Assembly: GCA_029959195.1 (NCBI GenBank)
Contig: CP114123.1
Location: forward strand, 372,001 to 436,000
From: Dictyophora rubrovolvata
Lineage: Eukaryota > Basidiomycota > Agaricomycetes > Phallales > Phallaceae
Length of the DNA stretch: 64,000 nt
Reading direction: 5' to 3'
Shown here: piece by piece, positions 12,815 through 64,000 of the stretch
Numbering within the stretch: the stretch's first letter is position 1
Layout of the letters: every line of letters begins with the position of its first letter
Notes under the pieces: model-generated
What the model was told of the DNA's origin: nothing
Seen by the model: the letters and a program-made list of their open reading frames with translations, nothing else
Databases searched by the model: none
Translations under genes and position numbers: made by a program

Positions 12815-14332
12815 ATGGTTGTTGTCAGCCTTCCTTCCAGGTTGCCAAGCTTGTCGCAGCCTGCAGAAACAAATCTTTCAAGCTCTTCCTTTTCCTCTTC
12901 CGACATTCCCCCTCAACAAATAAATCAGTCTTTGCATTATTACGACCAAGATGTCGTTCGCGAACTGAGTATCCCGCCCGAGCAAATCTCCTCTGGCCCC
13001 CGTCGGTACCAACTTGTCAATGGATCATTTCCCCAAACGGCCGAAACTTCAAGTTTCCCCTTCCAATTCTCTCAACATGTTTCCTCGTTAAATTCTCAAA
13101 CAACTCGTCCTCGGACACCCCCTGTTAATTTTGTTTCTCAACATGGTCTTCCCACTTCACTGCCACCACCACCGCGTACAACATTCGTCGCAGAATCGTC
13201 AAATACAAACTCACAAGAACCATCAGACTTAGTTCGAATTCTAGACTCTATACTTCGCGGTTCATATAGCAATATGTTAGCAAGTAATTCCGATACCTCT
13301 GTTACAGGCGCAGATGCGCCTGCCGTAGAAAACAATGCTGGAGGTAAGTCGACGAAACGGAGCTTGACACCCGCAAAATTGAGAGTTCTCATACCTTCAT
13401 CAGTTGCCATCGATTTCGATTTTTCTCTCGATGACATACTCCAGCCTGATGTCTGCGAGGATAGTTTCCTCACGTCTCCCCAACTATTAGACCAGACTCC
13501 AGAAACTCCGTTCATCGATACTCCTTACGATGAAGATTTATGCTCCCCTTTCCTCGACGATGGCTCATATACTTATGGTAGTATGCCACCTCCTTTCGGT
13601 TCCATAGTTCAGCAAGCGAAGGAGGAAACCTGTGTAATGCCTGCTGTGACCATCACTCCGGTGCCGCCGCCCGCCCTTGACTCATTCGGTTCCCCACAGT
13701 ACATCACCTCCCCATTGTTAGATCCCGCCTCATATTTTCACAATGCTTCAAAGGTCGAGCCAGTCACTCCGGCTCTACCTTCTCTTGACGACGCATTGTA
13801 TAAAATCCCTCAGACTCCAGCTTTGTCGCCTTCACTTCTTTTCACACCCGCGCGACCGCCGATGCAGCTGCCACCGTCTAATGCACCGCCACATTCTGTT
13901 TCTTCCCCTGCCTCAATCACTAAACCGTCGCGACCAACGAAAACTCTTCCAACAGGGATTCGACGTGGAATTACACCTTCTTCACTCGTCCCTCTCGATG
14001 CCCCAACTCAATCTCGTAATTACACCGCTCCTTCTGCTACCTCTCGCAAATTGGTTCCCGCAGCGTTCAAAGCCAAAAAACGTGGGCGCTCTGAGGTAGA
14101 AGGTGGAGTTGATGAGGATGAAGACGAAATTTCACTCGATCCTTCAACAATGGGCGCGATTGAGACGAAACGAAGACAGAATACTCTTGCGGCGCGACGG
14201 AGTCGTATGCGGAAACTGGAGCACACTCGCGAACTTGAAGATTCTTTGACTGCCATGACTCAAGATCGCGATATGTGGATGACTCGAGCATATGAAGCTG
14301 AAAATAAGTTGCGAGCACACGGAATATCATGA
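12815..14332 (+). CDS. GCN4: bZIP transcription activator, Gcn4/Cpc1 type
   Basis: Regulator of amino-acid biosynthesis genes under starvation, by family knowledge. The open frame from the first ATG (MVVVSLPSR) to 14,332 gives 505 residues without a required intron. The N-terminal 190 residues are Ser/Pro/Gln-rich. An acidic and hydrophobic segment follows (FDFSLDDILQPDVCEDSF to PYDEDLCSPFLDDG, about residues 206-250), likely the activation domain. Pro-rich linkers lead to the C-terminal bZIP: basic region RRQNTLAARRSRMRKL with the invariant Asn and Arg, then a short zipper RELEDSLTAMT. Its position at the very C-terminus matches Gcn4. The 3' UTR carries a stem-loop just before AATAAA. Five truncated relatives lie further right. 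This is the only copy with both the full activation region and the bZIP. Confidence 0.88.
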   Translation: MVVVSLPSRLPSLSQPAETNLSSSSFSSSDIPPQQINQSLHYYDQDVVRELSIPPEQISSGPRRYQLVNGSFPQTAETSSFPFQFSQHVSSLNSQTTRPRTPPVNFVSQHGLPTSLPPPPRTTFVAESSNTNSQEPSDLVRILDSILRGSYSNMLASNSDTSVTGADAPAVENNAGGKSTKRSLTPAKLRVLIPSSVAIDFDFSLDDILQPDVCEDSFLTSPQLLDQTPETPFIDTPYDEDLCSPFLDDGSYTYGSMPPPFGSIVQQAKEETCVMPAVTITPVPPPALDSFGSPQYITSPLLDPASYFHNASKVEPVTPALPSLDDALYKIPQTPALSPSLLFTPARPPMQLPPSNAPPHSVSSPASITKPSRPTKTLPTGIRRGITPSSLVPLDAPTQSRNYTAPSATSRKLVPAAFKAKKRGRSEVEGGVDEDEDEISLDPSTMGAIETKRRQNTLAARRSRMRKLEHTRELEDSLTAMTQDRDMWMTRAYEAENKLRAHGIS

Positions 14333-14684
14333 CGGCGATCTTTCTTTTATGATCTTTGTTTTCTTCTCTAACTCCTTTTTTGTCCCAGTTTCCCTTTGCT
14401 TATTTCTATGACGGGGATTTATTATGTCCTCTATTCACGTATCTCTGCCGAATCATGTCTCTTTGTCTATTTTTCCACCAAATCCCCAAGTCCCCTTCTC
14501 GTCCCCTCTCTCAATTTCCCTTGATGTTTCCCCATTCGTTGCCCCACTATCCACAATCCACAATTCACAATCGGCGTTTCCTTAACCTATCCCTTCCCAA
14601 ATTATTTCTTTGATGTGAAACCGATCTTTTCTAAATAAGTTTTGAAATAGCGAAATGTACCGAAAATTGATCGTTGTTAAATAC

Positions 14685-14714
14685 CGTCGAGGATAGTGTC
14701 CTCGACGAAATAAA
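14685..14714 (+). terminator. Stem-loop plus poly(A) signal of the bZIP gene
   Basis: CGTCGAGGA (14685-14693) pairs perfectly with TCCTCGACG (14699-14707) around a 5 nt loop; AATAAA follows at 14709-14714. The block is repeated unchanged at 43148 and 60968. Confidence 0.7.
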
Positions 14715-15270: not shown

Positions 15271-16979
15271 CTAGTCTTGAGCAGGCTGGATATCTGAATC
15301 TTCAATAGATTCAAATCCAGGATTCTCATGGTCGCCTTCTACATTTATATTCTCAGCATCCGGAGTGGCCAGCTCGACAGTGATGGATTGGTGTACATGT
15401 TGAAGGACATTTGAAAATTGTATTGGGGGCAGGGATGCAATACTGGCCTCAATTTTGGCAGAGTTAAGGCTGCGAAGGTCTAGTGTAAAATCCGCTACGA
15501 GGATGCTTGATAAACTTGGAAAAAAAGTCAGGATGAGCATCATGGACGCCAATCAATAAAATATCCTTACCTGTTTTGGTAGAGAGTAAACCCTCGTGAG
15601 AAGCTTTGGAGAAAAACTGAGGACTAATCAAGTCAAGTAACTGTGATTGGCACGAGAAAATGGAGTGATTACATTATTAAACTGGGAAGAGAATGACAGA
15701 GGTGGTAGACACAAACTAATCTTGTTGTTTCAAACTCACCTTTGCTAATACTACATCTGTGATGGTAATGGCAGTGACAAAACTAGCAGGTCCATGACAA
15801 TTGAGAGATTATCATGCTACAGAACCTGTTCTGCTTACCAACATCTTAAGATACCTTGTTGAAGCTTATCTAGAGACTTGTGGATACATCATACATTAGA
15901 TAAGACTTACTTTGTTTAATCAATACAGACACAAGGCTGTGTGTACTTTGAATCCCGGCTTCATGTTTCAATTTCCATGTGCCCCAAACCTTCCACATGC
16001 AAATGCCGAATATAAGGATGTCAGTGAGTATTACACAGATATTGTTACTGAATGCAAGTATGATACCACCGGCTACACGTGTGTTCTTCACAATGAGCCT
16101 ATATTTTCAAAATAAGCATGAAACATACTGGGTAAACTGAAGGTTGATTGAGACATTGAATGTGTCAGAAACAAGATTGAATTACCGACCTTGTAAAACA
16201 CCCAGGAAATACTATTATCTCTAGATGAAGGGTGGAATAGTTGTAGTCACAATAAGACAATTCAATTTTCTTACGACCCAAATTCAGTATCGAGCTCGCG
16301 AGAAAACTAAAAATTAGTGCAATAGTAGAAATTTTGTTTTGGCATAAAGCATATGCTCGAGCATATAACAACCCTGGGATAGCTATTATTTCAATCAAAT
16401 AATATGTCTAATAATGATGGGTGCACCTTGAACACTAATAGCTACCAATAGCTGCATGCAGTTTGTTGCAAGACCAAGTATGTTACAGGTTCTTTGGATT
16501 TCTTTAATTTATGCGATTTGGATTAATATACCTTACCTTTCAGACTTGAAGTGATTGGAAATGATAACAATGAGTGCTTTTGATACTAATCAACATTTCA
16601 TTAGCTTACCAGCACGAAGGCGACTGCCACATCAAGTCCTTGCAGAGCTAAGATACCATATCTTGCAAAAATGTACAACCATGTAGGAAAACTGAATGGC
16701 TTGAACCATATATGCTCTATTTCTTGTGACAGTTTTAACAGGGCAGCATAGAAAGGAAGTACTGCAGTTTGTCCGAGGATTAGGTTTGTTGTCTTTGCAT
16801 CCAGACCGCTCACTTGTAGAACTAAAGAGAAGCAAATAGTAGATATAGCTAATATTCCCCGATTGAAATAAACATAAAATATCAGAAACAACTTGAAAGA
16901 CAGAAGCATACTTTGCATAATATTCCTGGATAATGGCATCTACCGTTGCAGCAGTTAGGTTATTATTTGTGCTGTTCAT
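15271..16979 (-). CDS. DUF6533 domain membrane protein, copy B
   Basis: Multi-spanning membrane protein of unknown function from a family expanded in Agaricomycetes. The start ATG at 16,979 gives MNSTNNNLTAATVDAII. The DUF6533 core lies at about 16,630-16,790: LPFYAALLKLSQEIEHIWF followed by PTWLYIFARYG. Later exons encode membrane segments around RAYALCQNK (about 16,330) and ICVILTDILIFGICMWK (about 15,990-16,060). The last block, with SSILVADFTLDLR, ends in an acidic tail DSDIQPAQD at 15,271. At least six introns of about 50-70 nt are needed; I could not fix every junction. It faces the bZIP gene tail to tail. The frame is open in each conserved block, so it may be functional. Confidence 0.7.
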
Positions 16980-18099
16980 ACTATCAAGGACTAGCAGAGG
17001 TTTAGAGTGATCAGGCTGTGAGTTGAGTAAGTCCACGTGGAAAGGCTAGATGTCCAAGCCCTTAAATACAGCTTCATACGACACGACTGGACAATTCAAA
17101 TTATCATTGAAATTGTGATGTTAATATTTCACTCGAGAAAACGGAGGAATTCTAGTGGAATGTGAGATCCGTTGGCAAGGCTCACTGAGTGTACTGAGTT
17201 CAGACCAAGTAATTATACAATATTAGCCGCCAGATAGAATAGCTGATATAGTCAATGTAAAGGGTATTTTGCACCGTAACTTGTAAGTGAGTTGACGCGG
17301 TTGCTCAGGACAGCTCCACACTGTTGACGAGTCTTAAAATTTGAACAAAAGCCATCAAATACTGCCGGGGCAACGGATACGAAAATGGATAGGTTTGATC
17401 TAATCCCAAATGGCACTTGCGGGTCTATTTCATCTGAATTCAATTTAGTAAAAAACTCCTCATTTGCCTGTAACCTATACCAAAAAACAATAAGACGCTA
17501 GTGTGTGCGTAATGATAAAGAAGATTCAAAGCCCGGAAAACAGCGTTGATGTCGACATAGAACATGAGCCTCCCTTGATGCTGATGTTGTCGAGGGTCTG
17601 GAGTCTGGACAATGTCCGTGTTCATGATGAGATAAGGTGTATATGGTATATACATACGAATTTACCTTAAAAGTTGTTCCTGTTTGATAACTGCACCACG
17701 GTTGAGGTACAAATGGCCAGGGGCATGAGTCGCTCAAGTCACGACACCGGCTGTGAGTTTGGGCAACAGCTGAGGACGTTCCGGTTTTTTCGTTACGATC
17801 GGGGTCTTTTTCAATAATAGCCATCCGTCTCCGATATCAATCAACAAGGCATCTGTTTACCATTGATTGAAAATTCCAAGAATAGAACGGAGCCATCGCC
17901 CAAATGCTTGGATGAATAAATTGATCCCACACTTGAGCAAACTGGTTGATCCATACAAACGCTGTACCTTTTGAATGATTTGAGCATGTCCATGATATAA
18001 AACAAGAACAATATGATATAGATTCCTTCCTTCCGTCATGAGGTTGGGTCGGGTTAATTTCCTGCCGTGCGGCATTGTGGAACCGGCTAATAACATTTG
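16980..18099. repeat. Array block upstream of DUF6533 B
   Basis: Two linked blocks shared with other units: 17,040-17,440 (also about 45,900-46,560, 53,700-54,240 and 63,480-64,000) and 17,510-18,000 (also about 46,970-47,450 and 54,580-55,000). The first contains the DUF6533 promoter side with the conserved words CACTCGAGAA and GTGAGATCC. The second has short open frames without a known domain and may be a dead gene of unknown kind. Confidence 0.55.
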
Positions 18100-18915
18100 A
18101 AGATGCTATCAATGATCTAATTATCACAACACATAGTCAAGACGATAGATGCGTACGACGAACCTGCGCAAAGACCTTAATTCCGTGAACCGACTCATTG
18201 AGATACATTCAGTGAGCGTCCCACCCTTCAATCCTATCAACAGACTTTCGACGGCCCCGTTTCCGGGAAACACTCCGCAGAGCGATGAAGATTACATGTC
18301 AGAACCTGGCCTGGACCATAGAAAGTTTCTTCGTTGCCGAGTTGACAGATACGTCGATATATTACGCGGGAATACGCTCTCAAACGTTCCAAAGGCGTTA
18401 TTGTGATATAAATATTAAATGTAGCAGAATCCCAATGCTTCTCTTTCTTGATACAGTGCACGTCGCCTGCGCAGTTGACCGTAATGTCTGCTTGCCCGTT
18501 ATTCGTCATGTGTATAGCATCCGTAATCGGAGCGGTCAATCACACATTCTATGTATATTCAATCTCTCTTGCCTATAACTGCACGAGCTGAAATGGAGTA
18601 GAGTTCAGACGCACCCTTGAACGTCATATCATCGTCTCTCAGCTGCGTTAGACCCGGCGCACTAGGATAAAGACGAAGACTCGCTCGCGTTGTTAGCCGC
18701 TGAAATTTAGCTCATCAGAGGTCTCCGGAATACTCGTCAGCATGGAAAGCAGTTGTGCCTGAGGTGTAGATCACAAGGTCTGTTGAGAGAATAAGTTTTA
18801 AATCAACGAGTGATGGATGTAACATACCACTGGTAAGACCCTCATCATATTTAGTATAATATACGCAGAGACCAAATCGTGCGTCGTGCGAATGCGATAT
18901 GGTCTCGTCCTGCTT
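18100..18915 (-). pseudogene. HDAC fragment, lineage II
   Basis: Decayed copy of the 5' and middle part of the HDAC gene at 2,760-4,727. Visible remnants include MTNNGQADITVNCAG and YSRVIY (about 18,370-18,510), the end of the catalytic region FPETGPSK, and the N-terminal [14 protein letters not shown] (about 18,840-18,910). The catalytic DxDxHHGDG block is destroyed. The intron between the HDAC exons is still recognisable at about 18,540-18,590, so this arose by DNA duplication and not from mRNA. Related copies are at 47.6-48.3 kb and 55.0-55.6 kb. Confidence 0.75.
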
Positions 18916-19567
18916 CAAGTTGTGGTGACGCGTTGACTCCGAAGGCCAGTTTTGTTCCTCCTACCCTGGGAACTACGGATGAGCAGCTCCGCGCATAACC
19001 CAACCACATCGATCTGATACCATACATGATCGTAAATGAAGCTCGAAAACGATCTACATGCAGGGGTCCTTTTCAAGGAACAGCTTGACAACTTACTCAG
19101 AGAAAGACTGATTCCGGAGTGACAGGAGATTGAGACTATTCAGTCTTTTGTACTCTGACAAATTTTGAGCGATTGGTCACCACAACCGATGTCGAAGCTT
19201 AACGTTTAACTTTATGCAAGTCGGCGCACTGGGCAGTTCGGCCGGGCGAGACGATTCGGAGTTTAAATGTGAATAGCGTAAGCAGACGCGGGAAAACTTG
19301 CCGACACTCAAAGCTTGCGACCAACACTAACATCGTTCCATTGCCCAAATTATTCATGCAAACTCTCCGTCGTCATTAAATGGGTCAACAGCAGTAGCAC
19401 GGACTTTAACCAGCCTCATCATTCGCTGTCATCGGTTCTATTAGTCGTACGTGGTTGGTAAGATAATCTTTCAACTTTATTGACGTCGAGATAGAATAAT
19501 AACTATTTAAACGTAGTGGAAGAATCCATTTCGAACTGACATATTTCCAACGGTTCTGCGATTTAAA
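18916..19567. repeat. Array spacer between HDAC fragment II and bZIP fragment
   Basis: Shares stretches with about 48,260-48,650, for example GTTTAACTTT...CGATTCGGAGTTTA and TTCCAACGG...CTGCGATTTA. No coding signal. Confidence 0.5.
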
Positions 19568-20100
19568 GGCTGAGCCAGTTACTCCCGCTCTACCACCTGG
19601 CGACAATCCCTCAGAACTTTGTCAACTGCGCTTCTTTTCGTACCGCCATCCACCGCACCACATTCTGTTCCTCCTTCTGTCCCAACTACTAAATCTTACT
19701 AATCAACGAAACCCTTTTCAATGGGTATTCGACGTGGAATTACACCCGCCCCTCTCCTTTCTCTCAACGCCCCGACTCAATCTCGTAACGACTGCTCCTT
19801 CTGCCGCCTCCCACAAACTGATATTCGCAGTGTCCAAAGCCAAACAAAGTGGGTGCTCGTGGGTAGAATGTGTTGGTGATGAGAAGGAAGGCGAAATTCC
19901 ACTCGACCCTTCCAGAATGGACGCGATTGAGATAAAACGAGGACAGAATACTCTGGCGGCGCGACGGAGCCGTATGCGGAAACTCGCTAACTTGAAGATT
20001 CTTTGACAGCTGTAACTTAAGATCGCGATACCATATATGTTGTCGATGGCTCAAGCCTACAAAACTGAAAAATTCGTTGCAAGCCCATGGAATATCGTGA
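19568..20100 (+). pseudogene. bZIP (Gcn4-type) fragment, class 2
   Basis: Homology to the intact bZIP gene starts at parent position about 13,759 (the GAGCCAGTCACTCC stretch) and runs to the stop. Large parts of the Pro-rich linker are deleted. The basic region survives as RGQNTLAARRSRMRKL (about 19,945-19,990), but the zipper is lost to a frameshift directly after it, with a stop at 20,006. Activation region absent. The sister fragment at 48,652-49,168 has the same left breakpoint. Confidence 0.8.
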
Positions 20101-20784
20101 CGACGATCTTGTCTATCTCCTCCGATCCCTAACCCCCAAGTCCCCTTTTCGTTCTCTCTCAATTTCCCCTCAATTTTTTAAATTCCCCCCTTCACCGCCC
20201 TCCGCTACCCCCAATCTACAATACCCAAATTTTGATATGAAACTGATCTCTCAAATATTTTTGAAACAGTGAATTAACTAACGTCGGAGACTATTGTCCT
20301 CGCGGAAATACGGCGTCGCATCAGCCGTATTACTTCTGGTGTCCTTCCTCGCGATCTAAGATCTAAGGTTGGTCGGGCGATTGATGTCGACGCGCGGGAG
20401 AGATGGTTAAAGTAGTCAACGTTGTCGAACTGACGCACGACAAAATGACATCGTGCACACGCTGTTCTTTCGTTGTACTTGTGTTAATGACTCAAACGGT
20501 TGGCAATAAAGCTATTAAATAATAATGTCTTGACGATGCGGCCAAGCTTCAGGCTAGTTTCATTCACTGTTATCAAGTGCCGAACTTGAATACAAATTTT
20601 ATAAATATGAATCGGGCAACCGAAGGCTTCTACAAGTCATGAGAATCAACAGATTTTAGATACTGAAAAGCTGGAACAAGTTATAGTTTGCTTTCGCATC
20701 GTAGTTGTTAATGCTTAAAATTTGATCCATCGAACTACTGAAAGAAAAATAATCGTTAAAAACCTTTTGATAAAGATATATGAT
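20101..20784. repeat. Array spacer (bZIP 3' region, unit 2)
   Basis: Degenerate version of the 14,333-15,270 spacer. The 3' stem-loop is damaged here (about 20,282-20,310) and its AATAAA is lost. No gene. Confidence 0.5.
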
Positions 20785-21737
20785 CTAGCCTTGAGCAGGC
20801 TGGATGCCTGAATCTTCCATAGATTCAAACCCAGGATTACCATGATCGCCTTCCATATTTATATTCTCAGGACCCGGAGTGGCCAGCTCAATAGTGATGG
20901 ATTGGTGTACATGTTGAAGAATATTTGAAAATTGGAGTGGTGGCAAGGATGCAATGTGAGCCTCAATTTTGGCAGAGTTGAGGTTGCGAAGGTTTAATGT
21001 AAAGTCAGCCATGAGGATGCTTGACAAACTTGAGAGGAATGTCAGGATAGGGTATCATGGACGCCAATCAACAAATATCCTTACCTGTTTTGGTAAAGAG
21101 AAAACCCTTGTGAGAAACCCTGGAAAATAACTGAGGACTAATCAAGTCAAGTGACTGTGATTGACACGAGAGTGATTACATTATCAATCTGGAAAAAGAA
21201 TGACAGAGCTGGCAAACACAAACTAATCCTGTTGTTTCGAACTCACCTTTGCTAATACGGCACCTGTGATGGTAATCACAACGACAAAACTAACAGGTCC
21301 ATGAATTGAGAGATTATCATGTTACGGAAACTGTTCTGCTTACCAACATCTTAAGATTGTCGCAAAAACCTTAACAGGTTTATAATCCTTTTGAGGTTTA
21401 TAAACGCTTTATAAACCTTGATCGGTAAGTTATATTGATTTAATTACTCTTCTCCGCAATATACTTTGATTTAAATATTGCGGATAGAGATTGAATTGGT
21501 AACTTAGCCGGAGGCTTGATGCGAGCGGATGCTGTGAGACGACGACTTGCGATCAGTACCGATATGAACTGGAGAAGAAATGAGAGAAAAGGAAGGGGAA
21601 GAGAAGGAGAAAGCGGAAGAAGGATTTTAACGAGCGGTGGAAACTGGGAAAGACGAGCGGTTCATTAGTGATTCACCTCGGTGGGAAAATATAAAGAAAT
21701 GCATAGAATTCAAAATGACGAATAAAAATATGGATCT

Positions 21738-24700
21738 TTATTGATATAACTCCTGCGAATCTAGGAAAAAACGTACAAAAGTGTCATTATCAACCACATC
21801 ATTTAGAAAATAGACTTTCTTTTTGCTTGGAGAAAAAAAGGGAATGAAGTGACAGCCTCGAATGACGTATTCGAGACAAATGAACTGAACGTCTTGTTCT
21901 TCAAAAGCTTGCATTCCTTCCCACCGAACTGACTTCAAGACTGATGGTACAAGCATTTTCACGAGTGCAAGGTCACATTATTGGTCCTTCGAATCTTTGC
22001 AGGTAAAAATGAATAAAAGCTGAGCAAATGAAATTGGGTTTGTGTTTATTGCGACAAAATCAAAGCGTGGGTGTCCATGGAATTCAGTATTGCAACGGAG
22101 GATGTCCTTTGATGGTCGCCAGTCTTCCATTGACCGAAAGGTAATGTAGAGACATTTGAAAGGTTGAATCTGAAAACAAGAATTGATCATGTTCATACAG
22201 AAACAGATATACGCGGCACTCACAGTAGTATTATGATTTATCGACGGCCTCTGTTCATCTGGGATCTCATTCATAAACTCCAGAAGATTTGATGCAAAGT
22301 GAGAGAAGTTGGAATCTGGTGAATTATTTTGTTCTACCTCGGATAATTTCATGGTGGCAGAAGGGGAGCCTAAGCTATAATGATTTTCGATTTCATGCTT
22401 CTCCCGCGCTGTGTCTTCATCAACGGGGTTTTCGTCATCCGCGGAGTTGCGCTCCTTTTCGAATTGATCGACAAACATTCGTATTTGGGCTATCGCCTCC
22501 TGATTTTCATCGATTCTGGTCATCTAACCATAGAAGTTATTTGGTTAATCTTTGAACAGTATAGATGAGATATTTTACCTGAGCTTCAACACTTTTGAAG
22601 TTTGTTTGGCGATATGCCTGCTTCACTTCTTGCTGGAAACCTTCACCAGGACGGGTTGAATAGCCGTCAATACATCCTTTCCGACGCAAATCGGCTAAAG
22701 CATGACGCATCATATGGTGTTTAGGATAGCTATATGACTTTCCATGTAATTCCGTGATATCCTTTACATTGTTAATTCGTCTAGAATATTAGAATTAATT
22801 CAGACTCACGGTGCAAAGCTTGTGATATTCGGGTATAACAATTTGTTCCAGATATAAAATATTACGTTCAGATATAACTTTGAGACTGAGAACCGCACGA
22901 AATATGCCACACCAACGAATTGCTTGAAAAATGGGAGATTGCGCTTGAAGAATTGGAGCGAGACATGGAATAATACACTGGAATAATGATTCATTTGAAT
23001 ATCATGCAAAAATTGTGTTGAACCATGTATACCTTTAAAATGTCACGAAAAGAGTTTCCGTCAGTATAATCTATTTTAGTGACATGATCAAAATGTTTTA
23101 ATCTGGCCCAAGGTGGTACTTGTGCCATGCTATGCTCGACGTTGAGTTAGATGATAATATACCAAAGTAATAATGAAACTCACTTTCGAGATAGTTGTGC
23201 TTGTTCACTAGCGTTCAAGACTTTCAACAGCAGGGGCCATTGGTGTTTCCCCCATTCGCCCGAGTCAAAAGAATGTAAAATATCATATGAATATGCATGA
23301 TAAGGACAGGATCTACACAATTTCCAAAAACAATTCTAAAGAGAGTTAATTATCCTTCAATAGAATAGTCACGATCTTACTGGTATCAAATGAAGCCCAT
23401 TATTTTTCAATAAAAGTTCAGCAGGCTTTTGCTGCAGCGATTTTGCTTTCGTGAAGATCTCGGCCATGCTTGTATCAGTACGTTCTTGATACGCGGTGAT
23501 TATGGAATGTAGTTCTTGTTGTGGAACGAGGCAACGTGGACAAGGATAGTTCGCACGACAACCTCGTGTTCCACAGAAGGAATAAGCCTCTTCTAAGTCG
23601 AGAGAAGCGATCAAAAGGCCGGGAAAAATAATACGGATCGTCCCATCACCACACATAATTGCTTCGCCAAAGATCGATCGGTTTTTGAGAGACCGGAGAA
23701 TTATGCTAAGAATTTTATGATAGACTTCACGTTTGTACTGTGCCAATTCAATAGACGAGAGCGAGTCATCTTCATTATGAGGGGAATCAGCTGGATCGCC
23801 AACCTAAACCATATAATCTAATTAGTAAAAATAATAATCGATGTTGAAAGAAAATTACGATGGGCATGTAACCAATTAATATGCCCCCTCCATTTCCCGA
23901 TGCATTCCGTATTTGGCTTGGAAGTGCACATGCGCGTAAGATAATTGGATGCATTTTTTTATTAGTGGACACATTGCTCTTATCAAGCCATATATGCAGC
24001 GGGAAATAACAGTGTGGATGCTCTGAGTCGGGATTAATAGAATCCTAAATTATAATGTTAAAGCAATATGATATGATTCTCAACAAAATTGTAAATACCT
24101 GATATTCCCACCACGCATCGCCTGAATTAAGTTCATCATATATTCGCGTGACTTCCTCGCCAACATGTAGGAACTTCTTCACCGGAAACCATGAAATATC
24201 TTCGGACAGAGTTGGATCCTGGACTAAATTCATGATCCACTGCCACGGATCTCGATATAGGAACTTGAAAGTTTGAGTTTTTCCTTGAAAGGTATGCGAA
24301 ACCTCAGCTTCGGTAAACTTCAAATAGATCAGACATACGGCAACGATCAGACGAGGAAATCAATTCATACTTGCTGGATAAATTTTCGGGCTGAGGTAAG
24401 AGAGTCTTGAACATCTTGATGTGTTCGGAATGTTAATGAGGAGTTCTTTGCCCATCCGCCGTGAATACCATTGAGAATCCTGTCTGTTATATCCTTCTTT
24501 AAACAGCCAGTCACTACGATTTCGGCAAACTCGAAGTCTGCGCGTGTGCGGAAAGGGGCCCATGGCCGTTCAGGATCAGGAGTGTGCTGAGAAACTGATG
24601 GTTTGTCGGAATTTGTTTTGGGAAACTGTTCTGTGTCTAGTGGGATGATTGTAGGCTCGTGTAGTTTGCTATGCGGATGATGTATAATCTCAATATATTC

Positions 24701-25131
24701 ATCTGAACTTGATGGTGTTACAGGGGGAGTAGAAGCTGATTCGTCATCTAATATTTGATCTAATATTTGATCCAGAAATTACTTGGTAAAATTTTGCATA
24801 AGCATGGATGATAACGCTGCTTACCATGCATATAAACGTCATCTACCATACCAACAGACCACGTGTTCCGATCGACACCTACACCCTCGGATACTTGTAA
24901 ATGTGAGCCTGGATATCGCTCTATATGGAATAATTTAGTTTGAGAATATTGAGATAGACCAAATGTACCCGTACGATCGTTCAGACCCAGGGTCGGTGTC
25001 CGAAGCACATTGTTGCGCAAGTGTTTGATTCTGCATGCCTCTTGATGTTTATCGAAGCGATGGTATTTCTTTACTTTGTTGCAGTATTGGCAAAATCGCT
25101 GGTGTCCTAATACTTTACGACTGCTGTGCAT
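21738..25131 (-). CDS. Plavaka-type transposase
   Basis: Cuts and joins transposon ends. From ATG 25,131 the protein begins with a C2H2-like finger, CQYCNKVKKYHRFDKHQEAC. Exons joined by short introns then give DPERPWAPFRTRADFEFAE, DPWQWIMNLVQDP, FPLHIWLDKSNVS, a region with GDGTIRIIFPGLLIASLDLEE, the Cys cluster CGTRGCRANYPCPRCL, PKHHMMRHALADLRRKG, and the C-terminal DWRPSKDILRCNTEFHGHPRFD. Every junction I tested kept frame, for roughly 950-1,000 residues. One in-frame TAA at 21,978-21,980 separates the last 80 or so codons (KMLVPSVLKSVRW onward, to 21,738); the homologous frame continues beyond it. The acidic residues in DKS and GDG are candidate catalytic positions. The kinase cargo is transcribed divergently. 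Confidence 0.85.
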
Positions 25132-25200
25132 GAGGGATCGACGTTATCGATTATACTGTGTTTTCATGCCTGAAAGCAGAGCAGTGAGCTCAGTTGACTT

Positions 25201-25213
25201 CACGTGACACGTG
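25201..25213. promoter_or_regulatory. Twin CACGTG E-boxes
   Basis: CACGTG at 25,201-25,206 and 25,208-25,213, in the 240 bp between the divergent transposase and kinase starts. E-boxes bind bHLH factors; use here is inference. Confidence 0.45.
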
Positions 25214-25368
25214 ACAGTAAGTAAACTTCACTGTTCCGCTTTTCCGTCCACTTGGGTATCCTCCCCACAAAGGGACGAACGAGAATGAGAGCAAGGAAAA
25301 GAGAGCAGTGGTACTTATTGGGACGTTTACTCCCATCCTGCAGCTGTGACATTTGCGGCTGCACATCC

Positions 25369-51520: not shown

Positions 51521-51946
51521 CCTCCTTGCTACCTGAGCGTTGAGATTGTTGAAGTCGACACGTGTCGAGGCGCAGGTGAGAGAGTTGACGCAGTCAACGT
51601 CAACACTTGGTTGCATGAAAGGAAGTCGTCGTATATACCAGACGGTCTACGGTACTTATATGCACAGCCGTTGCCGACGCGGCGAAGCCGAGTTGCAATT
51701 CACTGTTATCAATTAAAGTGTCAGACTTGAATACAAAATTAATAAATATGGATATGGTTGCCGAGGGCTTTTACAAGTCAACAGATTTTAAATGCTGAAA
51801 AGCTATAATTTCTTTTCGCGTCATAGGTTTCTAATGCACTTAATAGGTGTTGAAGCTTGAACTTTGGTCTATCGAACTGCGAAAAGAAAAAAAATCGTTA
51901 ATGACCCCCCAAAATAAAGATGGTGACACTGACACACGGATATGAT
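51521..51946. repeat. Array spacer, unit 3/4
   Basis: Nearly the same as 61,320-61,770 and recognisably related to 14,940-15,270. High similarity to the 61 kb stretch suggests recent duplication or conversion. No gene. Confidence 0.55.
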
Positions 51947-53657: not shown

Positions 53658-55000
53658 ACTATCGAGGGTAATTAATAGCGGAGATCTAGAGTGATCAGGC
53701 TGTGAGTTGGGCAAGTCCACCTGAAAAGGATAGATGTCCATTGAGCCCTTAGATACAGCTTTATATATCGCGGTTGAAGAACTTGAATTATTATTCAAAT
53801 GGTATTGATACCTCACTTGAGAAACAGGGGAATTTTAGCGGAATGTGAGATCTGTTGGCAAGGCCCACTAAGTGTACTGAGTTAAAGTCTCAGAAGTGAT
53901 CATCCAGAATTAGCCGATGTAGTTGATGGAAAGGATATTTTGCGCCGTTACTCCCACCCATCACGCTTCTGTAATTACAGATGATTCATTAATGTCTTGG
54001 AATATAACCTGCATAGCCCCTATGTCTCGATTAGTGCAGCAAGCTATTGAGGTTTTCGACTTAGCAGTTGTTCCTGTGAGTAGTAAAATCAACGCTTGAT
54101 ATCACAAGTTGATGAGTCTTAAACAAAAGCCATTAAACTGCTCCTGGAACAACTGATGCGAAATGGACGGGTTTGATTGGCACTTGCGGGTCTATCTCAT
54201 CTGAGCCCAACTTGGTAAAATTCTTCACTGGCCCGTAACTTCCGTAGCAGAACAATAAGATTAGTCTCAAAGCAGTGCTCTTATAATATGCTGCTGATTA
54301 TATCGACAGAAGTAATCCTATGATTATCAATTCTGAATTCCGATAAACTGACTTTGTTTACTTAGTGATGAAAAACCCTTTGCCGAGGAGAGCCTGTCAC
54401 TGGTTCGACCTGTCGAGGTGGAGTCGGCGCTCAGCCGCGGTTGCGCAGTTTCAGAAATACCTGTGGCCTCTCATATAGTAAAAGTCATTTGGGCTACAGC
54501 CTTTTTAGGATAAGATTCCGCAGATGTTGTATTAAAAGTATATGCCAAGTGATTTGTTAGCGTGTGGGCAATGATAAGACGAACTCATTGACAGATAAGA
54601 CGAACTCAGAGCCCGGAAAACAGTGTCGACATCGACATTGAACATGAGCCTTCGTTTGCGCTAATGTCGTCGAGACTCTGGACAATGTCTGTGTTCACGG
54701 TGAGATATAGTATGTACATGCGAGTTTACCTTAAAAGCTGTTCCTGCTTTGATGGCTACTACACCACTGCGCTCAGCTGAGGTTCCGGTTTGTCTGTTAT
54801 GAACCGGAGAACTCGGGGTCTTTCTAATGATAATCCATCAGTCTCCAACATCAATCGACAGCGCGTCTGCTAACATTGAAAAATCCAATAATGAAATGGA
54901 AAACCATCCCGCAAATGCTTGGATGAATAAGTCGATCACACATTTGAGCAAACTGGTTGATCCATACCTTTTGAATTATTTTCTGGATTTGAGCATGTCC
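53658..55000. repeat. Array block upstream of DUF6533 E
   Basis: Matches 16,980-18,000 and 45,900-47,450. A short direct duplication (GATAAGACGAACTCA, near 54,574 and 54,595) is specific to this copy. No gene. Confidence 0.5.
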
Positions 55001-55560
55001 ATGATATAAGACAAGAACAATATGATATAGAATCCCTTTCTTCCGTCATGAGTTGGGTCAGGTTAATTTCCTGCCGTGCGGCATTGTAGAACCGGCTAAT
55101 AATGATCCAATTATCACAACACATAGCCTAGACGATAGATGCGTACGACGAACCTACGCAAAGACCTTAATTCCGTGAACTGACTCATTGAGATACATTC
55201 AGTGAGCGTCCCACCCTTTCCTATCGGAAGACTTTCGACGGTCCCGTTCCTGGAAAATATTCCGCAGAGCAATGAAGATTACATGTCAGAACCTGGCCTA
55301 GGCCGTGGAAAGTTTCTTCGTCGCCGAGTTGGCAGCTATCTCGATGTATAGTGCATGGGAATACGCGCTCAAAGGGTTCCAAAGGCGCCGTTATGATATC
55401 TTTCTTGATATCGTGCACGCCGCCTGCGCAGTTGACCGCTTGACTGTTATTCGTCATGCGTGCAGCATCTGTAATCGGCTCGGGAGCAGCCAATCACACC
55501 CACGAACGTCGGATTATCATCAGTAGCATTAGACCCAGTGCTCTAGAATGAAGATAAAAA
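55001..55560 (-). pseudogene. HDAC fragment, lineage II, unit 4
   Basis: Shorter version of the 18.1-18.9 kb fragment with MTNNSQAVNCAGGVHDIKK (about 55,400-55,460) and NLHCSAEYFPGTGPSK (about 55,235-55,285). It is cut off near 55,560, where lineage I sequence starts, so two HDAC lineages are fused head to tail here. Confidence 0.72.
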
Positions 55561-55569: not shown

Positions 55570-56450
55570 GCCTCGCCTGGAGGATATTACGCCATTCTTG
55601 AAAAGGATACCGCACTTGAGCAATCCAGTTAGCTCTGTCAAAACGCAGCGCCTTTTTATTTTCCTAGATCTAAGCATGACTTGCTTCCGCGTTGGGGGAA
55701 AATCTCACACATAGCATGTTCTTTCATCGAGCTTATATCCAGCAAGTAAATCGCACCGCATTGTAGAATGATGACCACCGATGAATATCGTTTCATTTTT
55801 TTTCTAGCCATAACATATGTACACCGAGTGTAGTCAAGACGATGAATGAACGGAAGGCACCTGTTTAGACTTCTCATCCGTCAAACCAGTCAATCCACCA
55901 TCTCAACACAATTGACGGTCCCCATTAACGGAAAATTCTCGCAGAATAGTGAAAACGAACACGTCAAAACCCGATCATTGTGGGACGCTTCTTTGGCCTC
56001 ATCACCGAGATGTCGATGCATGATACACGGCAATACGTTCTCAAAGGTTTCATGAGCGTTGATACGCTGTTGTTGATGTAGCAGGATCCAGATGTTTCCT
56101 CTTTGGGCGTGGTGCACATCGCCTTGTCTCTTGATCGCAACGTCTGCTTGAGCGTGAGTAGTTAACTGGAGCGGCCAGATGTCAAGAATGTACATGTGTC
56201 TAGGGTGTAATCTCTTACTTACTGAACCGTTGGTTAATACGGCAGAATTCAGACATGCGCCTCGAATGCTGGACTGTCGTCTCCTATGAGGGCCCCAGTT
56301 ACATTAGACCCGATTAACTTCGTATAAGAAATCTATTCACTCGGAATTTATGGGATGAGTCTAGGATTAACCAGAAATATATTACAACATACCAAAACCT
56401 TCATTTACCGGCATGCGAGATGTTGGCGAGATGGCTTCGTACTGTCTCCG
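55570..56450 (-). pseudogene. HDAC fragment, lineage I, unit 4
   Basis: Close relative of 36,590-37,480: MKEHAMCEIFPQ near 55,720, and [18 protein letters not shown] with VHHAQRG around 55,930-56,120. Breakpoints and many shared mutations match the 36.6 kb copy, so both derive from one already broken ancestor. Confidence 0.75.
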
Positions 56451-56583
56451 TGTCATGAGCCAGAACATTAAAGTTTTGTGACGCATGTGATGTGGGCGCC
56501 TGTGAATCACCCATTGCCGTTAAACTCATGACCGTGCTATCCGAAGCAAGTTCAACTTCAGCCTCGACCATGTCACCAGTCTG

Positions 56584-57596
56584 TCTTCGTGCAGTGGCTT
56601 AAAAATTCGAATTCCTATTAGACGTTCCACCTTGGTCAATAGCGACGCGTCATCTTCAAACCAACCATCGAGCAGCGTTGGGGGTTACAAATCGCAATCC
56701 GAAATGGAGGATGTCGAAATGGAAGAAAGTATACTGCGCGCAGTGGGAACATCAGTAATCCCCCGGAAAGATGGGTTCGATGGGAAACAGACTTTCTCGA
56801 GAAGTGTTTCGAAACAATGCGATACCCCGACGATTCGTTGAGGTCCAAATGGGCCTTGAATTTGACAGAGAAGCGGCTTCGGAATATTAAGACCAGTCCT
56901 GGAGACAAGGAAAATTTGGCTAAAATTTAGCATTCACAGTGCGTTGATCGTCGTTGATTTAGAATGATAATATTGAAAAAGACGCTCAAAATTAGTTACA
57001 AAAGACGGCTTTCTAACTGGTTCAAAAACAGGAAGGCGAAGCTAAGGCGAGAAGGTGAGACTTTTGTGGAAGAAAATCCAGAAGGCCTCGAAGACGACGA
57101 AGAAAGTCCAGTCGCATCGCCTCGTATCCGACAAGTTTGTAACCATTCTGCGACCGTTGGAAAACACAAGGTCACCAAAAACCATCGCTATTGGGGGGAA
57201 GACGATGATGAAGAGGTTCGTACTTAGTCTCATTCTGTATGACTCACTTTTAACACTTCCCAGGAATTCCGCGACGACTCGCCAGAAAGCGAGAAAGGAC
57301 AGTCCGAATTAGGTGAGCTCGAACATGATACACCTCAGCCCACCTACCCACTCGATGATGAGGTATATCAAAACGGAAGCCGGTTGGATATTTTGACCCA
57401 TCTGGCGTCCTTACAACCACCTTTACCAGCAACTACTTCAGCATGCCGCGACGAACCTATGAGCGAAAGTCAGCCTCGTGTTCTACTGACGTTTCCTGCG
57501 TCTACAAGTCAAAACGAGTCCTCTGCCAAGTATGACGACGACATCATATATGGAGCCACGCTATTGATGCAACTGAAGATGGGCTACAGAGGGTAG
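56584..57596 (+). pseudogene. Homeodomain gene copy, broken
   Basis: Paralog of 38,729-39,752. The ATG is lost (GTGCAGTGGC in place of ATGAGCAGTGGC). A 25 nt deletion between GAAA repeats near 56,728 shifts the frame before the homeodomain. A TAG replaces the Trp codon near 56,928, just before the intron. The recognition helix RRLSNWFKNRKAKLR and the complete C-terminal half are still readable, ending ATLLMQLKMGYRG at 57,596. The 48 nt stretch before GAATTCCG also holds a TAG here, which would be harmless if that stretch is an intron. Overall a young pseudogene, since most codons match. Confidence 0.85.
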
Positions 57597-59100
57597 TGTA
57601 GGGCGCGACTCCGAGACATGCCAATGCTCCTTCTCTGGCATGTTCCGGTCTCCGCTTCCTTCTTTCCTGCTTTATATGTCTAGTTAAACGAGCATGTGTA
57701 TCATCATCCCAAATATAATCGCTAAATGAATATAACGAACTACCCCATGATTCAATGGCTTACTACTTCCTTTAGACTTTGTCTGTTAGCTCGCTGGAGT
57801 TGTCTCGGAAGTCATCGATTATTATTGCTTGTTTTCGAATAGAAGCGTACCACAATGTATTATCCCAATATTGAGTTGTTCCATTACCTGAGGCCGAACC
57901 CCTTTATTGTAAATGGCATACCGCAAGGGCTTGATGTTACGACTCGCCTACCATGAAGCCACAGATCAGGATGAACAATTTGACCAGACGCCTTCTAAAA
58001 GTTGGAAAGAGTTTCATGGTTCAAAAACGGGAATGATACCAGGATTACTTTGTTTTATTCATAGCTACCGGCAGAGCAGACAAAGTCAAAATAAGTTTAG
58101 ATTCTTATGAAACATACTTATCTCATATACAAAATGCAGGCTGCGGAAATTTACGGAACGAGGAGGTTTTCAGCTATGTTTGCATAGATTTAGTAAAACA
58201 CTGGAATGCGACTTGCCTCATTTCGCTTACTCGAACTATCCCTGTTTATCTTTCGCGTGCTTTTTTGGTGGCGATACGTGGGATGAGACTCCAAGCGCAT
58301 ATATAACTAGTGGGATGTAAATGTCAGGGAAATCGACGTCAGGAGAATTGGATCTAATCATGATTTCTGACACAGCGTCGTTCGGTATCTCTGCACGGTA
58401 ACTCAACAAATGTCTGAAGGTGATGACGACATCCAGAAAATACAGATCTTTCCGTTTATCAACTCAGATGGAAATATGTCAATGGGAAAATACACCAGTG
58501 TTCAACGCAAACGACGTTGTGCAGGGACCGTGTGGCTAAAGAAACTGTAGATCCGATCTGATTTGAGCTCGAATCAAGGAAGTTCTGCTTTGGAAAGAAG
58601 GCTGACCATCCGTCAAGGAAATCAGGAATAAATGTCTCACTGCATATTATAAAACAGATCTCCAAATCCGGGTTGACGGTGAGCCACTTCTGCTAAGATA
58701 GTCAACAATAAACTATCTCTGCTTCCCTCATATTAATACGAGGCATTTACTCCCGTACCCTCTGACGTATCCGGCCACAATCTGAGAAGTGGGCGTGCAC
58801 AAGTCAAGCTGTTGCTGCATGGAGCAAGACAATGCGATAGATGATTCTGGACATGAGCAGAATAAAGCACGCCTGCCGTATGAAGAGTGCTCCATTATCA
58901 AATGACAAGATTAGTATGGCATCCCTGGCCGTACATGGGAACTGAGAATAGAAAATAGAAAAGCGCTGTACGCACCGGAGATGATAATGGCTATCCTAGT
59001 CCATGAACTGTAACGTAACGTTTTGCTACCTGCTAGTATGTCCCCGGTCCCCTTCAAACCGCCCTGGAAGAGTTTTAAAAATAAGCTTAAAATCAGCGAT
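57597..59100. repeat. Array block downstream of the homeodomain copy
   Basis: Counterpart of 39,753-41,274, similar along most of its length. No gene recognised. Confidence 0.55.
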
Positions 59101-59104
59101 GCGT

Positions 59105-59175
59105 GACCAAAACCTTCATTTTATTTGACATGACATACGCCGAGACCAAATGATAGGACATGCCTATGCGATGTG
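59105..59175 (-). pseudogene. HDAC N-terminal fragment, lineage III, unit 4
   Basis: KPHRIGMSYHLVSAYVM is readable on the minus strand, matching [17 protein letters not shown] of the intact HDAC. It keeps more of the coding frame than its two sister fragments. Confidence 0.75.
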
Positions 59176-59754
59176 GCTTCAGACTCGTTGTGTGGTTTGA
59201 ACCACTGACCGGCGGAGTCGTAATGCATGCGTGACATGTGTGACATACACTATGTGCGCTTGTGGGTTTCTTGTTCTTCCTCTTAGCGTATCCTCTCGAC
59301 GAAAATTGCTTGTCTATGATGGCAGTCTCCTTTCTCAGCATCATGGTCAACGGGGGAAACAACGGTATGGACCAACTGGTGTGTGTATCTCTCACTCTCG
59401 TCTGTACCCCAAACCCTTTTACTCTCTTTAGTCAAGTTTACTACGAGCCTTTCGACATAGGGCTAGGGGGATGTATTTCACTGCAGGATGATTCAAAATT
59501 ATAGTAGCATTACTTAAATGAGCTAGAGAACGGAAGAGCGGGCAACGCGACGCGAGTGAATTCGACATTCAAAGACGCCTCGGAGCAAGACTGAGAGTGT
59601 CATACAGTCTTGCCGTCTGTCTTTGTCTGGGTGTATGTTTATAACGAGAAAATCTGACACCACTGTCATGGGCGTAAACGTGCCTTTTGAGAAGAAAAAT
59701 ACCTCGAGGTAAGTCGAGCAAGACGCGCAGAGATTCAGGTGCTCACGTCCTTAT
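59176..59754. repeat. Array block upstream of class 1 bZIP copy, unit 4
   Basis: Counterpart of 41,401-41,991. Only this copy has an intact GTAAGT donor at 59,709, placed 49 nt before the CAG at the bZIP breakpoint; the sister copies read GCAAGT and GCAGGC. Confidence 0.55.
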
Positions 59755-60645
59755 CAGTTGCTATCGATTCCGTCTTTTCTTTTAATGACATACTCCAGCC
59801 TGATGTTTGCGAGGACAATTTCCTCACGTCTCCCCAACTATTAGACCAGACTCCACAAACTTCGTTCATCGACACTCCTTACGATGAAGATTTATGCTCC
59901 CCTTTCCTCGACGGTGGCTCTGGTAGCCACCTCCTTTCGGTTCCATAGTTCAGCAAGCGAAGGAGGAAACCTGTGTAATGCCTGCTGTGATCATCACTCC
60001 GGTGCCGCCGCCCGCCCTTGACTCATTCGGTTCCCCGCAGTACATCACCTCCCCATTGTTAGATCCCGCCTCGTGTTTTCCCAATGCTTCAAAGGTCGAG
60101 CCAGTTGCCCCCGCTCTGCCATCTCTTGACGACGCATTGTATAAAATCCCTCAGACTCCAGCTTTGTCGCCTTCACTTCTTATCACACCCGCTCGACTGC
60201 CGATGCAGCTCCCACCATCTATTGCACCGCCGCATTCTGTCTCGATCAACGAAAACTCTTCCAACAGGTATTCGACGTGGAATTACACCTTCTTCACTCG
60301 TCCCTCTCGATGCGCTGACACAATCTCATAATTATTCCGCCCCTTCTGCTACCTCTCGCAAATTGGTTCCCACCGTGTTCAAAGCCAAAAAGCGTGGGCG
60401 CTTGGAGGCAGAAGGTGGTGGTGGTGAGGACGAAGATGAAGATGAAATTTCACTCGACCCTTCAACAATGGGCGCGAATGAGACGAAACGAAGACAGAAT
60501 ACTCTTGCGGCGCGACGGAGGCGTATGCGGAAACTGGAGCACACTCGCGAGCTCGAAGATTCTTTGACTGCCATGACTCAAGATCGCGATATGTGGATGA
60601 CTCGAGCAATATGAAGCTGAAAATAAGTTGCGATCGCAGTTATGA
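59755..60645 (+). pseudogene. bZIP (Gcn4-type) copy, class 1, unit 4, bZIP domain kept
   Basis: Least decayed copy. The activation segment reads NDILQPDVCEDNFLTSPQL to PFLDGG, then a frameshift; the Pro-rich middle is open from 59,978 to 60,331 in one frame. A second shift puts the last part in the frame of a 176-codon ORF, 60,084-60,614. That ORF contains RRQNTLAARRRRMRKL (Ser to Arg at the position before the invariant Arg) and the zipper, ending at a frameshifted TRAI instead of TRAYEAENKL. If expressed, it would be a DNA-binding region without activation domain. Start at ATG 60,084 is possible but unproven. Confidence 0.8.
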
Positions 60646-60997: not shown

Positions 60998-61770
60998 GTG
61001 TTGCGTTAATTGTATTACTCTTGATGTTCTTCCTCGATATTTAAGCTTCTAAGTTGGTCGAGCAATTGATATCGACGCAATAATAACACGCAGGATATTT
61101 TTCCCTTGAAAGAGCTTGATGCGCTTAGCTGTGCAGCAGTTGGCGAGCCATGAGTGAAAATTCTATAAGCCCTCAAGGTCATTCCACTGTCGCTCGAAGG
61201 AACGTCATTGTACACACCTTTCTTCTTTTGTTGCACTTAGGTCAAACAATGGTATACACAGTTAAAGTCATTGATGGCCTTTCTAGAGTTGCGTTTATTG
61301 TGTTACTTCTGTTGTCCCTCCTTGTTACCTGAGCTTTGAGATTGTTGAAGTCGACACGTGTCGAGGCGCAGGTGAGAGAGTTGAAGCAGTCAACGTCAAC
61401 ACTTGGTTGCATGACCGGAAGTCATCATATATGCCAGACAGTACTTATATGCACAGCCATTGGCAACATTGGCTGTTAATCATTTCCTGCCGACGCGGCG
61501 AAGCCGAGTTGCAATTCACTGTTATCAATTAAAGTGTCAGACTTGAATACAAAATTAATAAATATGGTTGCCGAGGGCTTTTACAAGTCATAAGAATCAA
61601 CAGATTTTAAATACTGAGAAGTTGGAACACGCTATAATTTGTTTTCGCGTCATAGGTTTCTATGCACTTAGGTGTTGAAGCTTGAACTTTGATCTATCGA
61701 ACTGCGAAAAGAAAAAAATCGTTAATGACCCCCCAAAATAAAGATGGTGACACTGACACACAGATATGAT
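60998..61770. repeat. Array spacer, unit 4/5
   Basis: Combines the long spacer seen at 14,715-15,270 with the 51,521-51,946 version. No gene. Confidence 0.5.
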
Positions 61771-63464
61771 CTAGTCTTGAGCAGTCTGGATGTCTGAATC
61801 TTCCATAGATTCAAATCCAGGATTATCATGATCGCCTTCCACATTTATATTTTCAGGATCTGGAGTGGCCAGCTCAATAATGAGAGACTGGTGTACACGT
61901 TGAAGGACATTTGAAAGTTGCATTGGTGGCAGGGATTTATTGTTAGCCTCAATTTTAGTAGAGTTAAGGCTGCGAAGGTCTAGTGTAAAATCAGCTACGA
62001 GGATGCTTGATAAGCTTGTAAGGAAAGTCATGATAAGTGTTACGGATGCCAACCAAAAAATATTCTTACGCATTTTGGTAAAGAGTAAACCCATATGACA
62101 AAATCTGGAAAAGGAATGTGGACTAATCAAGTCAAGTGACTATGATTGACACAAAAAATGGAGTGATTACATTTTGAAACTGGGAAAAGAATAACAGAGC
62201 TTGCAAACACAAATTAATTTTAACTCACCTCTGTTAGGACTTCAGTTGTGACGCTAATGACAATGACAAAGCTTGCGGATCCATAGCTTGAGAGATTACC
62301 ATCGTACAGAAACTGTGTGCTTACCAAAATTTTAAGATACCTGATAGCCACTTGTTATCTAGAGATTCATAAATACATTTGACAAGACCTACTTTGTGCC
62401 ATCAATACAGACACAAGACTGTGTGTACTTTGTATCCCAGCCTCGCGTTTCAATTTCCATGTACCCCAAACCTTCCACATACAAATGCCGAATATAAGGA
62501 TGTCAGTGAGTATATTACAAATATTGTCAATGGATCCAAGTATGACATCACTGGCTAACATGTGTATTCTTTTACAATTGGCCCAAATTTTCAAAATAAG
62601 CATGAAACATACTGGGGAGACTAAAAACTGACAATTGACACATTCAATATGTAAGGAACAAGATTGAATTAATGACCTTGTAAAACATCCTGGGAATGCT
62701 GATACAGCTAGATGAAGGATGAAGGATGAGGTGATTACAGTTAAAATTAGTAAACTCAATTTTCTTACAATACAAATGAAGTACTAATCTTGAGAGAAAA
62801 CCAAAAGCTAAGGCCACAGTTGCAGGGATTTTGCCCCGGCACAAAGTATGTGCTCGAACGACCATTAAACCTAAGACAAGTACTATTACTGTTTAATTGA
62901 AATAACTCATTATGATAATATGCACCTTGAACACCAATATAGGTCAAGACTGACGCAAAGCTTGTTACATTAGCAAGCATGTTACAAGATCTTTAGATTT
63001 CTCCAATTTATGTCAATCAGAATGAGTAGGATATCTTACCTTCCTAGCTTTAAGTTATTTAAAATCAGAGTTCGCAGATGCCATGACACATAACCAACCT
63101 ACCGGCACCAAGTTTACTGCCAAATTAAGTACTCCCAGAGCCAAGGCCCCATATCTTGCAAAGATGTACAACCATGTAGGCAAGCTGAATGACTTGAGCC
63201 ATATATGCTCTATTTCTTGTGACAGCTTTAACAGGGCAACATAGAAAGGAAGTACTGAGGTTTTGTTTTATAATAAAGCTTGTCATCAAACATCTAAATT
63301 GTCACTCACTTGTAGAACTGAAGAGAAGCCAATTGAAGATATTGCTAATATTCCTCAATCAAAATAATATCAGACACGAAGAGAGAAGCATACGCATACT
63401 TTTCCTGATATTCCTGGATAATGTTGTCTACAATTGCAGTTGGGTTATTGTTTGTGCTGTTCAT
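61771..63464 (-). CDS. DUF6533 domain membrane protein, copy F
   Basis: Start ATG at 63,464 in the MNSTNNN-like context. The core FYVALLKLSQEIEHIWL then PTWLYIFARYG lies at about 63,130-63,240. Later segments are GKIPATVALAFGF (about 62,795-62,830) and ICNILTDILIFGICMWK (about 62,460-62,545). The final block, with LTSLSSILVADFTLDLR, ends DSDIQTAQD at 61,771. The exon 1 region is slightly shortened relative to B. Organised like the other copies; function unknown. Confidence 0.67.
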
Positions 63465-64000
63465 GATATCAGGGGCAATGACGGAGAATTAGGGTGATCA
63501 GGCTGTGAGAAGTTGGGTGTCTCCACAAGGAAAGGCTAGATGCCCATGCCCATAAATATGGTTATGTCGGGATTGGATAATTTCAATTATTGGATATTAA
63601 AATTGCCATTTTGATATCTCACTCGAGAAGGCGGAGGAACTCACAGTGGAGTGTGAGATCCCTTGGCAAGACCCACTAGGCTAAGCATACTGAGTTGACG
63701 TTTCAGACCCGGTAACCATAGGACTCTATCAAGATGAAATAACTGATTCTGTGGAAGTAAAAGGTATTTTGCACTGTTACTCTCACCTACCATGCCCCTT
63801 GTAATTGCAGGGAATTGAGAGTGTAATCTTCGTATCCCAAGTTATGCCTCAAATTAAACTAGGATCACATTGATTAATGCAGGGAGCTGTTGATTTTGTT
63901 AACTCGTGGGTTGACGCAGTCGCTCTGATGAGTGAACTCAACACCCAGGCATCACAAGACCATTCAATGCGCACTGTTGATGAGTCTTAAAAATATTTAA
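63465..64000. repeat. Array block upstream of DUF6533 F, cut by window edge
   Basis: Matches 45,900-46,440 and 53,700-54,120, including the CACTCGAGAAGG and GTGAGATCCC words. The array therefore continues beyond the window. Confidence 0.55.

Follow-up and report, generated by a model that had tools for sequence, protein, structure and literature searches.

In the basidiomycete Dictyophora rubrovolvata, a 64-kb window of contig CP114123.1 (C7:372001-436000, in a genome of 28.2 Mb in 11 contigs) lies within an array of tandem blocks that probably arose by stepwise local segmental duplication, with a gene of the DUF6533 family as constrained cargo and with mostly decaying passengers taken from other genes. 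A reading made from the sequence only had described four gene families (bZIP, DUF6533, histone deacetylase (HDAC) and homeodomain) recurring in fixed order, and had interpreted the array as a local amplification built on regulatory genes. What it observed is partly confirmed and what it concluded is partly supported: stepwise duplication of local blocks is borne out by tandem same-strand blocks, a common spacer order and a DUF6533 tree that follows physical order, but it is the DUF6533 gene that keeps open exons, the bZIP, RPD3 and HOS3 copies being truncated and mostly broken. Positions below are those of the window, negative values lying to its left.

Extent and order of the array

Comparison of the window with itself gave the off-diagonal blocks expected of such an array, long, in one orientation and about 60-94% identical over 12.8-64 kb, together with direct repeats of up to five copies. 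When the comparison was extended 20 kb to the left and 30 kb to the right, the array was found to span about 105 kb, from -18.9 kb to +86.5 kb, so that the range first assigned to it (12,815-64,000) is too short. A weak HOS3 piece (30 residues, expect value (E) 0.007) lies at 87.4 kb, and two stretches of 10 kb each beyond the 114 kb compared (L066 and L067) gave no match to the array. Chance is excluded by alignments of hundreds to thousands of bases with E < 1e-10. The divergence between most copies, about 8-43%, and the insertions and deletions (indels) particular to each make a simple assembly error unlikely. Tandem repeats are commonly error-prone, and one inverted pair of 3.8 kb (-18430 to -14707 and 66897 to 70603) is 90.5% identical, as an artefact or merged haplotypes might leave; against that divergence of most copies, and in an assembly of so few contigs, such an origin is extremely improbable. 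The inverted pair is among the younger events of the array. Two stretches, 43599-43870 and -9281 to -8699, can each be matched to their reverse complement (78% and 83%).

The repeating order is an HDAC piece (minus strand), a homeodomain gene or a second bZIP piece (plus), a spacer with HOS3 and RPD3 pieces (minus), a bZIP piece (plus) and DUF6533 (minus). Order and orientation are as first described, but a lipase-like gene is a further family and the HDAC pieces come from two genes. Unit A holds the full bZIP gene and DUF6533; unit B an RPD3 piece of type II, a second-class bZIP piece and a DUF6533 copy split by an insert; unit C an RPD3 piece of type I, a homeodomain gene, the spacer, a bZIP piece and DUF6533. 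In unit D a type II RPD3 piece with a weak lipase piece is followed by a second-class bZIP piece, the spacer, a bZIP piece and DUF6533, and in unit E RPD3 pieces of types II and I are followed by a broken homeodomain copy, the spacer, a bZIP piece and DUF6533. Unit F, outside the window, has a lipase piece, a second-class bZIP piece, a homeodomain copy, a lipase copy, the spacer, a bZIP piece and DUF6533. Unit G consists of the HOS3 gene and DUF6533. Two further homeodomain copies and one lipase copy, inverted, lie at the left end.

The DUF6533 copies

The DUF6533 gene has about twelve exons and is easily missed when long frames are looked for, since these exons are short. Outside single intact genes the array had been taken to consist of fragments; copies A, C, D and E are instead multi-exon, with open exons and largely conserved splice sites. 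All seven copies, A-G, exceed the curated cut-off of PF20151 (24.1 bits; copy A, 37.8 bits). Exon lengths in A, C, D and E either agree or differ by multiples of three, and no stop occurs across the ten exons tested. Across 5313 exon sites in the six pairs of these copies, 9 indel runs were counted, each of length 3; across 4723 intron sites there were 91, of which 80 break the frame. Exons 4, 9 and 11 were excluded from the exon set and so counted as intron, and the six pairs, drawn from four copies, are not independent of one another. Most borders retain the splice AG and GT, even in G, which is about 60% identical; exceptions, as aligned, include the acceptors preceding exon 11 (in F) and exon 12 (in C and G). 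As drawn, F has a stop in exon 11 and G has stops in exons 11 and 12. In copy B the exons are open on either side of the insert and one donor, after exon 6, is changed. A continuous reading frame is likely.

Over the genome the DUF6533 domain gave at least 153 exon-wise matches (E up to 10; 150 of 217 candidates scored). Contig C7, which makes up 8.6% of the genome, carries 51 of the 150 typed matches.

Local origin of the HDAC pieces and the spacers

The HDAC pieces stem from two local parents at the ends of the array, an RPD3/Clr6-like gene on the left and a HOS3-like gene on the right. The left one, on the minus strand at about 2.8-4.7 kb, is the single intact HDAC that had been placed in or beside the array, and its best relatives over the domain are Clr6 (best match in the PDB), HDAC1/2 and RPD3; the best relative of the right one is HOS3 (7wjl, E 4e-68). 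Against all HDAC loci of the genome, the local gene was the best match of the five longer RPD3 pieces without exception, and none of these loci but the local HOS3 and RPD3 genes matched the four spacers. An origin in distant paralogues is ruled out, two of the five longer pieces touching an HDAC of C10 only weakly. The spacers and breakpoints are shared by the units, as had been claimed: HOS3 5' and RPD3 5' pieces stand in one order in all four spacers, and in three of these a HOS3 3' piece adjoins the HOS3 5' piece. This common chimera points to a single rearrangement at the origin of the unit, with duplication coming later. Two proteins compared with NCBIfam, which is a library for prokaryotes, had no match there.

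Chimeras of unrelated genes are typical of capture by transposable elements, and the units are such chimeras, so that a Helitron or Pack-type element might have collected the gene pieces and multiplied them. In the same direction point a 3.5-kb homeodomain-bearing block of the left end that is also found on C6, and a high-copy repeat of 1.2 kb at the edge of the 12.8-kb insert in copy B. The parents, however, are local and the units stand in tandem in one orientation, and matches to the bZIP protein (18 of 18, E up to 1) and to the lipase (7 of 7, E up to 0.01) are confined to the array in the whole genome. At the borders of the insert, the one insert examined, neither a terminal inverted repeat (7 or more) nor a direct repeat was seen; a 9-mer is common to both ends, about 45-50 bases inside. 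The insert itself follows C4:2659.6-2672.8 kb colinearly in separate pieces (67-82%), its kinase part is 93% like C11:378.6-381.9 kb, and the 1.2-kb repeat at its right end is present full-length at 97-99% in six other places. Multiplication of the units by an element is, on this balance, unlikely.

Order of duplication

Rooted on G, the most distant copy, the DUF6533 tree has F branching first, then E, then A-D (A, C and D apart from E, 99/99; A with D, 76/80). This branching order is the right-to-left position on the chromosome, the order within A-D not being resolved. Identity peaks between A and D (0.94 in one 200-column stretch) and between C and D (0.95 in another) are suggestive of exchange between DUF6533 copies.

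The two alternating sub-types of the sequence-only reading, one with the homeodomain gene and one with the second-class bZIP, hold for units B to E. They fail for F, which carries both a second bZIP piece and a homeodomain copy. Because F has both features and branches before A-E, and because E has both RPD3 types, the sub-types would be explained as well or better, and more simply, if a composite unit resembling F had lost different parts in different copies.

Taken together, stepwise segmental duplication would have started from an ancestral locus with DUF6533, a divergent homeodomain gene, a GCN4-like bZIP gene and a lipase-like gene, flanked at the ends by the RPD3-like and HOS3-like HDACs. 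Rearrangements first joined pieces of these neighbours into a chimeric unit, as the common order, junctions and local parentage show, and unequal exchange would then have multiplied the unit in tandem, which would account for the single orientation and for a tree following physical order. The frames, splice sites and indel pattern show that selection preserved open DUF6533 exons in most units and an open homeodomain frame in two. The bZIP, HDAC and lipase pieces, mostly decayed in their frames, would be passengers presumably without function.

Constraint on the cargo and decay of the passengers

Several results weigh against constrained DUF6533 genes accompanied by decaying passengers. The exon borders of DUF6533 were picked from the alignment with open frames in view, after scripted whole-gene models had differed between copies and had been replaced by these borders; as drawn, 2 of the 11 exon joins (7/8 and 11/12) disagree in phase. 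For A, C, D and E the ratio of nonsynonymous to synonymous substitution (dN/dS) lies at 0.53-0.60, and none of their six pairs has a significant excess of third-position differences. A neutral simulation over four exons (212 codons) gave 2.5, 2.4 and 3.3 expected stops for C, D and E; none was observed, the probability of no stop being 0.07, 0.08 and 0.03, respectively. On the side of the passengers, third-position excess was found in 4 of the 6 pairs of the truncated bZIP copies C, D, E and F, and in 2 of the 3 RPD3 pieces of type II compared with their parent. The bZIP tree, which is weak, groups A with E (63/43). This grouping is rejected by the DUF6533 tree (p 0.0018), and the DUF6533 order is not rejected by the bZIP data (p 0.117).

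The constraint on the DUF6533 copies is moderate, given their dN/dS and the lack of a significant third-position excess. The excess in the truncated bZIP copies implies that these were not neutral throughout: they may have decayed after a period of constraint, or the signal may have been blurred when they later exchanged sequence with the full gene. The excess might also be expected if truncated bZIP or other regulatory copies were functional, for instance as dominant-negative bZIP forms, and had driven the amplification. Two full homeodomain frames would fit such a function, as would bZIP copy F, in which an open frame of 212 codons including the bZIP region is retained. The condition of the copies argues otherwise. 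One bZIP gene is intact, as had been noted, and its protein lies above the cut-off of PF07716, with GCN4 chains as best, although weak, matches in the PDB (E 0.0035). The seven 5'-truncated copies have no match to its first 153 residues; in six of them stops or frameshifts interrupt the matched part, the one stop of F lies upstream of that part, and D is left without the domain. In the RPD3 pieces of type I the differences are spread evenly over codon positions. An amplification driven by functional regulatory copies is hence very unlikely, and stepwise duplication around a DUF6533 cargo remains the preferred account.

The homeodomain genes

One intact homeodomain gene had been reported. This is correct within the window (h38), but a second full frame of 306 codons in three exons, h-13, lies outside it (C7:358-359 kb); dN/dS between the two is 0.25. 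Two further copies, h67 and h-15, are open for about 250 codons on the borders of h38, and their third helix has WV instead of WF. The full protein scores 19.4 bits with PF00046, against a cut-off of 22.9, and the domain stretch alone 23.6 bits; all five family members match this profile at E up to 1, and the best PDB matches are homeobox chains (E 0.0004). The Pfam match places 70 residues on 47 profile positions, with about 23 extra residues before the third helix, a stretch reminiscent of HNF1.

Relatives outside the array were found on C1 (two places), C3 (two) and C6. The C6 locus (716-726 kb, L065) contains at 2321-5633 the 3.5-kb block mentioned above, which includes a homeodomain copy, now decayed, and is 72% like positions -10.8 to -14.1 kb. 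At both C3 loci (2892 kb, in L062 at 2886-2896 kb; 369 kb, in L063 at 365-375 kb) the homeodomain-family gene is convergent with a DUF6533 match less than 3 kb away; the other three of the five loci have no DUF6533 match within 40 kb. For two of five within 6 kb, the probability by chance is 0.025 with 150 typed positions, the loci being possibly non-independent through the block that C6 shares with the array. A DUF6533 membrane protein and this homeodomain family might form an old convergent pair, a receptor-and-regulator module of which the array would be a local expansion; this is doubtful. If true, the module would be testable, and this possible pairing is the part worth following.

Features of the window

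The coordinates are collected in Table 1. In addition, a frame with fibronectin III and BRCT domains lies at 5467-5991, between the HDAC and the bZIP gene.

Table 1. Array features in the window, from left to right
Feature	Position	Strand	Remarks
Partial DUF6533 copy, inverted	1505-2284	+	DNA comparison
RPD3/Clr6-like class I HDAC, parent of RPD3 pieces	2816-4727	-	PF00850 E 8e-79; last exons uncertain
Full bZIP gene	12815-14332	+	505 residues; sole full copy found in genome
DUF6533 copy A	15271-16979	-	Exons open; PF20151 E 2e-9
RPD3 piece, type II	17601-18911	-	16 stops in protein match
Second-class bZIP piece	19187-20110	+	Truncated, broken
DUF6533 copy B, 3' half	20764-21357	-	Alignment
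Insert in copy B, 12.8 kb	21358-34188		Replaces about 54 bases between exons 8 and 9, two from exon 9
DUF6533 copy B, 5' half	34189-35320	-	Donor after exon 6 changed; alignment
RPD3 piece, type I	36569-37582	-	
Homeodomain gene h38	38729-39752	+	306 residues; exons 38729-39105, 39161-39371, 39420-39752
Spacer	40566-41990	-	HOS3 5' (41607-41825), HOS3 3' (41490-41603) and RPD3 5' (41243-41378) pieces
bZIP copy C	41991-42876	+	5'-truncated, broken
DUF6533 copy C	44188-45888	-	Exons open; exon alignment
RPD3 piece, type II, with weak lipase piece	47035-48267	-	Lipase protein E 0.005
Second-class bZIP piece	48284-49190	+	Broken
Spacer	49400-50847	-	HOS3 and RPD3 pieces
bZIP copy D	50848-51521	+	Truncated, bZIP domain lost
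DUF6533 copy D	51947-53657	-	Exons open; exon alignment
RPD3 piece, type II, with lipase piece	54606-55500	-	Lipase by DNA similarity to unit F alone (protein E 0.99)
RPD3 piece, type I	55570-56590	-	
Homeodomain copy h56	56591-57600	+	Broken: start lost, 25-nt deletion, stops
Spacer	58346-59748	-	HOS3 5' and RPD3 5' pieces; HOS3 3' piece not found
bZIP copy E	59749-60614	+	Truncated, frameshift near end
DUF6533 copy E	61771-63464	-	Exons open; exon alignment

Comparison with known systems

The array resembles the homeodomain mating-type locus of basidiomycetes in having homeodomain genes with DUF6533 matches nearby. It differs in that KN-type genes and an M3 peptidase, presumably MIP-like, are found on C3 and the array homeodomain is another family, the array genes not being among the nine PF05920 matches of the genome. 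That the array is itself the mating locus is ruled out, as a homeodomain cluster beside the M3 peptidase sits at C3:2058-2114 kb, likely the mating-type region. Three matches to DUF6533 lie within this cluster, at 2072-2081 kb.

Basidiomycetes have a large and poorly known family of DUF6533 proteins. According to one account (PMC10949477), SNB1 (Snowball) of Coprinopsis cinerea contains DUF6533, which is specific to basidiomycetes, and seven transmembrane helices are predicted for it; this one member of the family is needed for mushroom development, and most Agaricomycetes have 1-3 copies of the snb1 family. The array copies are alike in matching PF20151, the seven-helix prediction concerning SNB1 alone, and unlike in forming a tandem array and in the genome-wide count given above, which is for the DUF6533 domain in its wider sense. 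With seven copies that have diverged to different degrees side by side, the array should be useful to show which parts of the protein are constrained.

Clusters of tandem segmental duplications form by unequal exchange, and the array is like them in its same-orientation blocks, shared junctions, graded divergence and hitch-hiking pseudogenes; unlike them, it has as cargo a DUF6533 gene accompanied by RPD3, HOS3 and GCN4-like pieces. In a partial collection of the literature no comparable array was found, a four-gene HSP20 tandem cluster in Coriolopsis trogii being what turned up. The process is known and the cargo unusual, and the array shows that HDAC and transcription factor debris of local duplication can pass for a new regulatory cassette.

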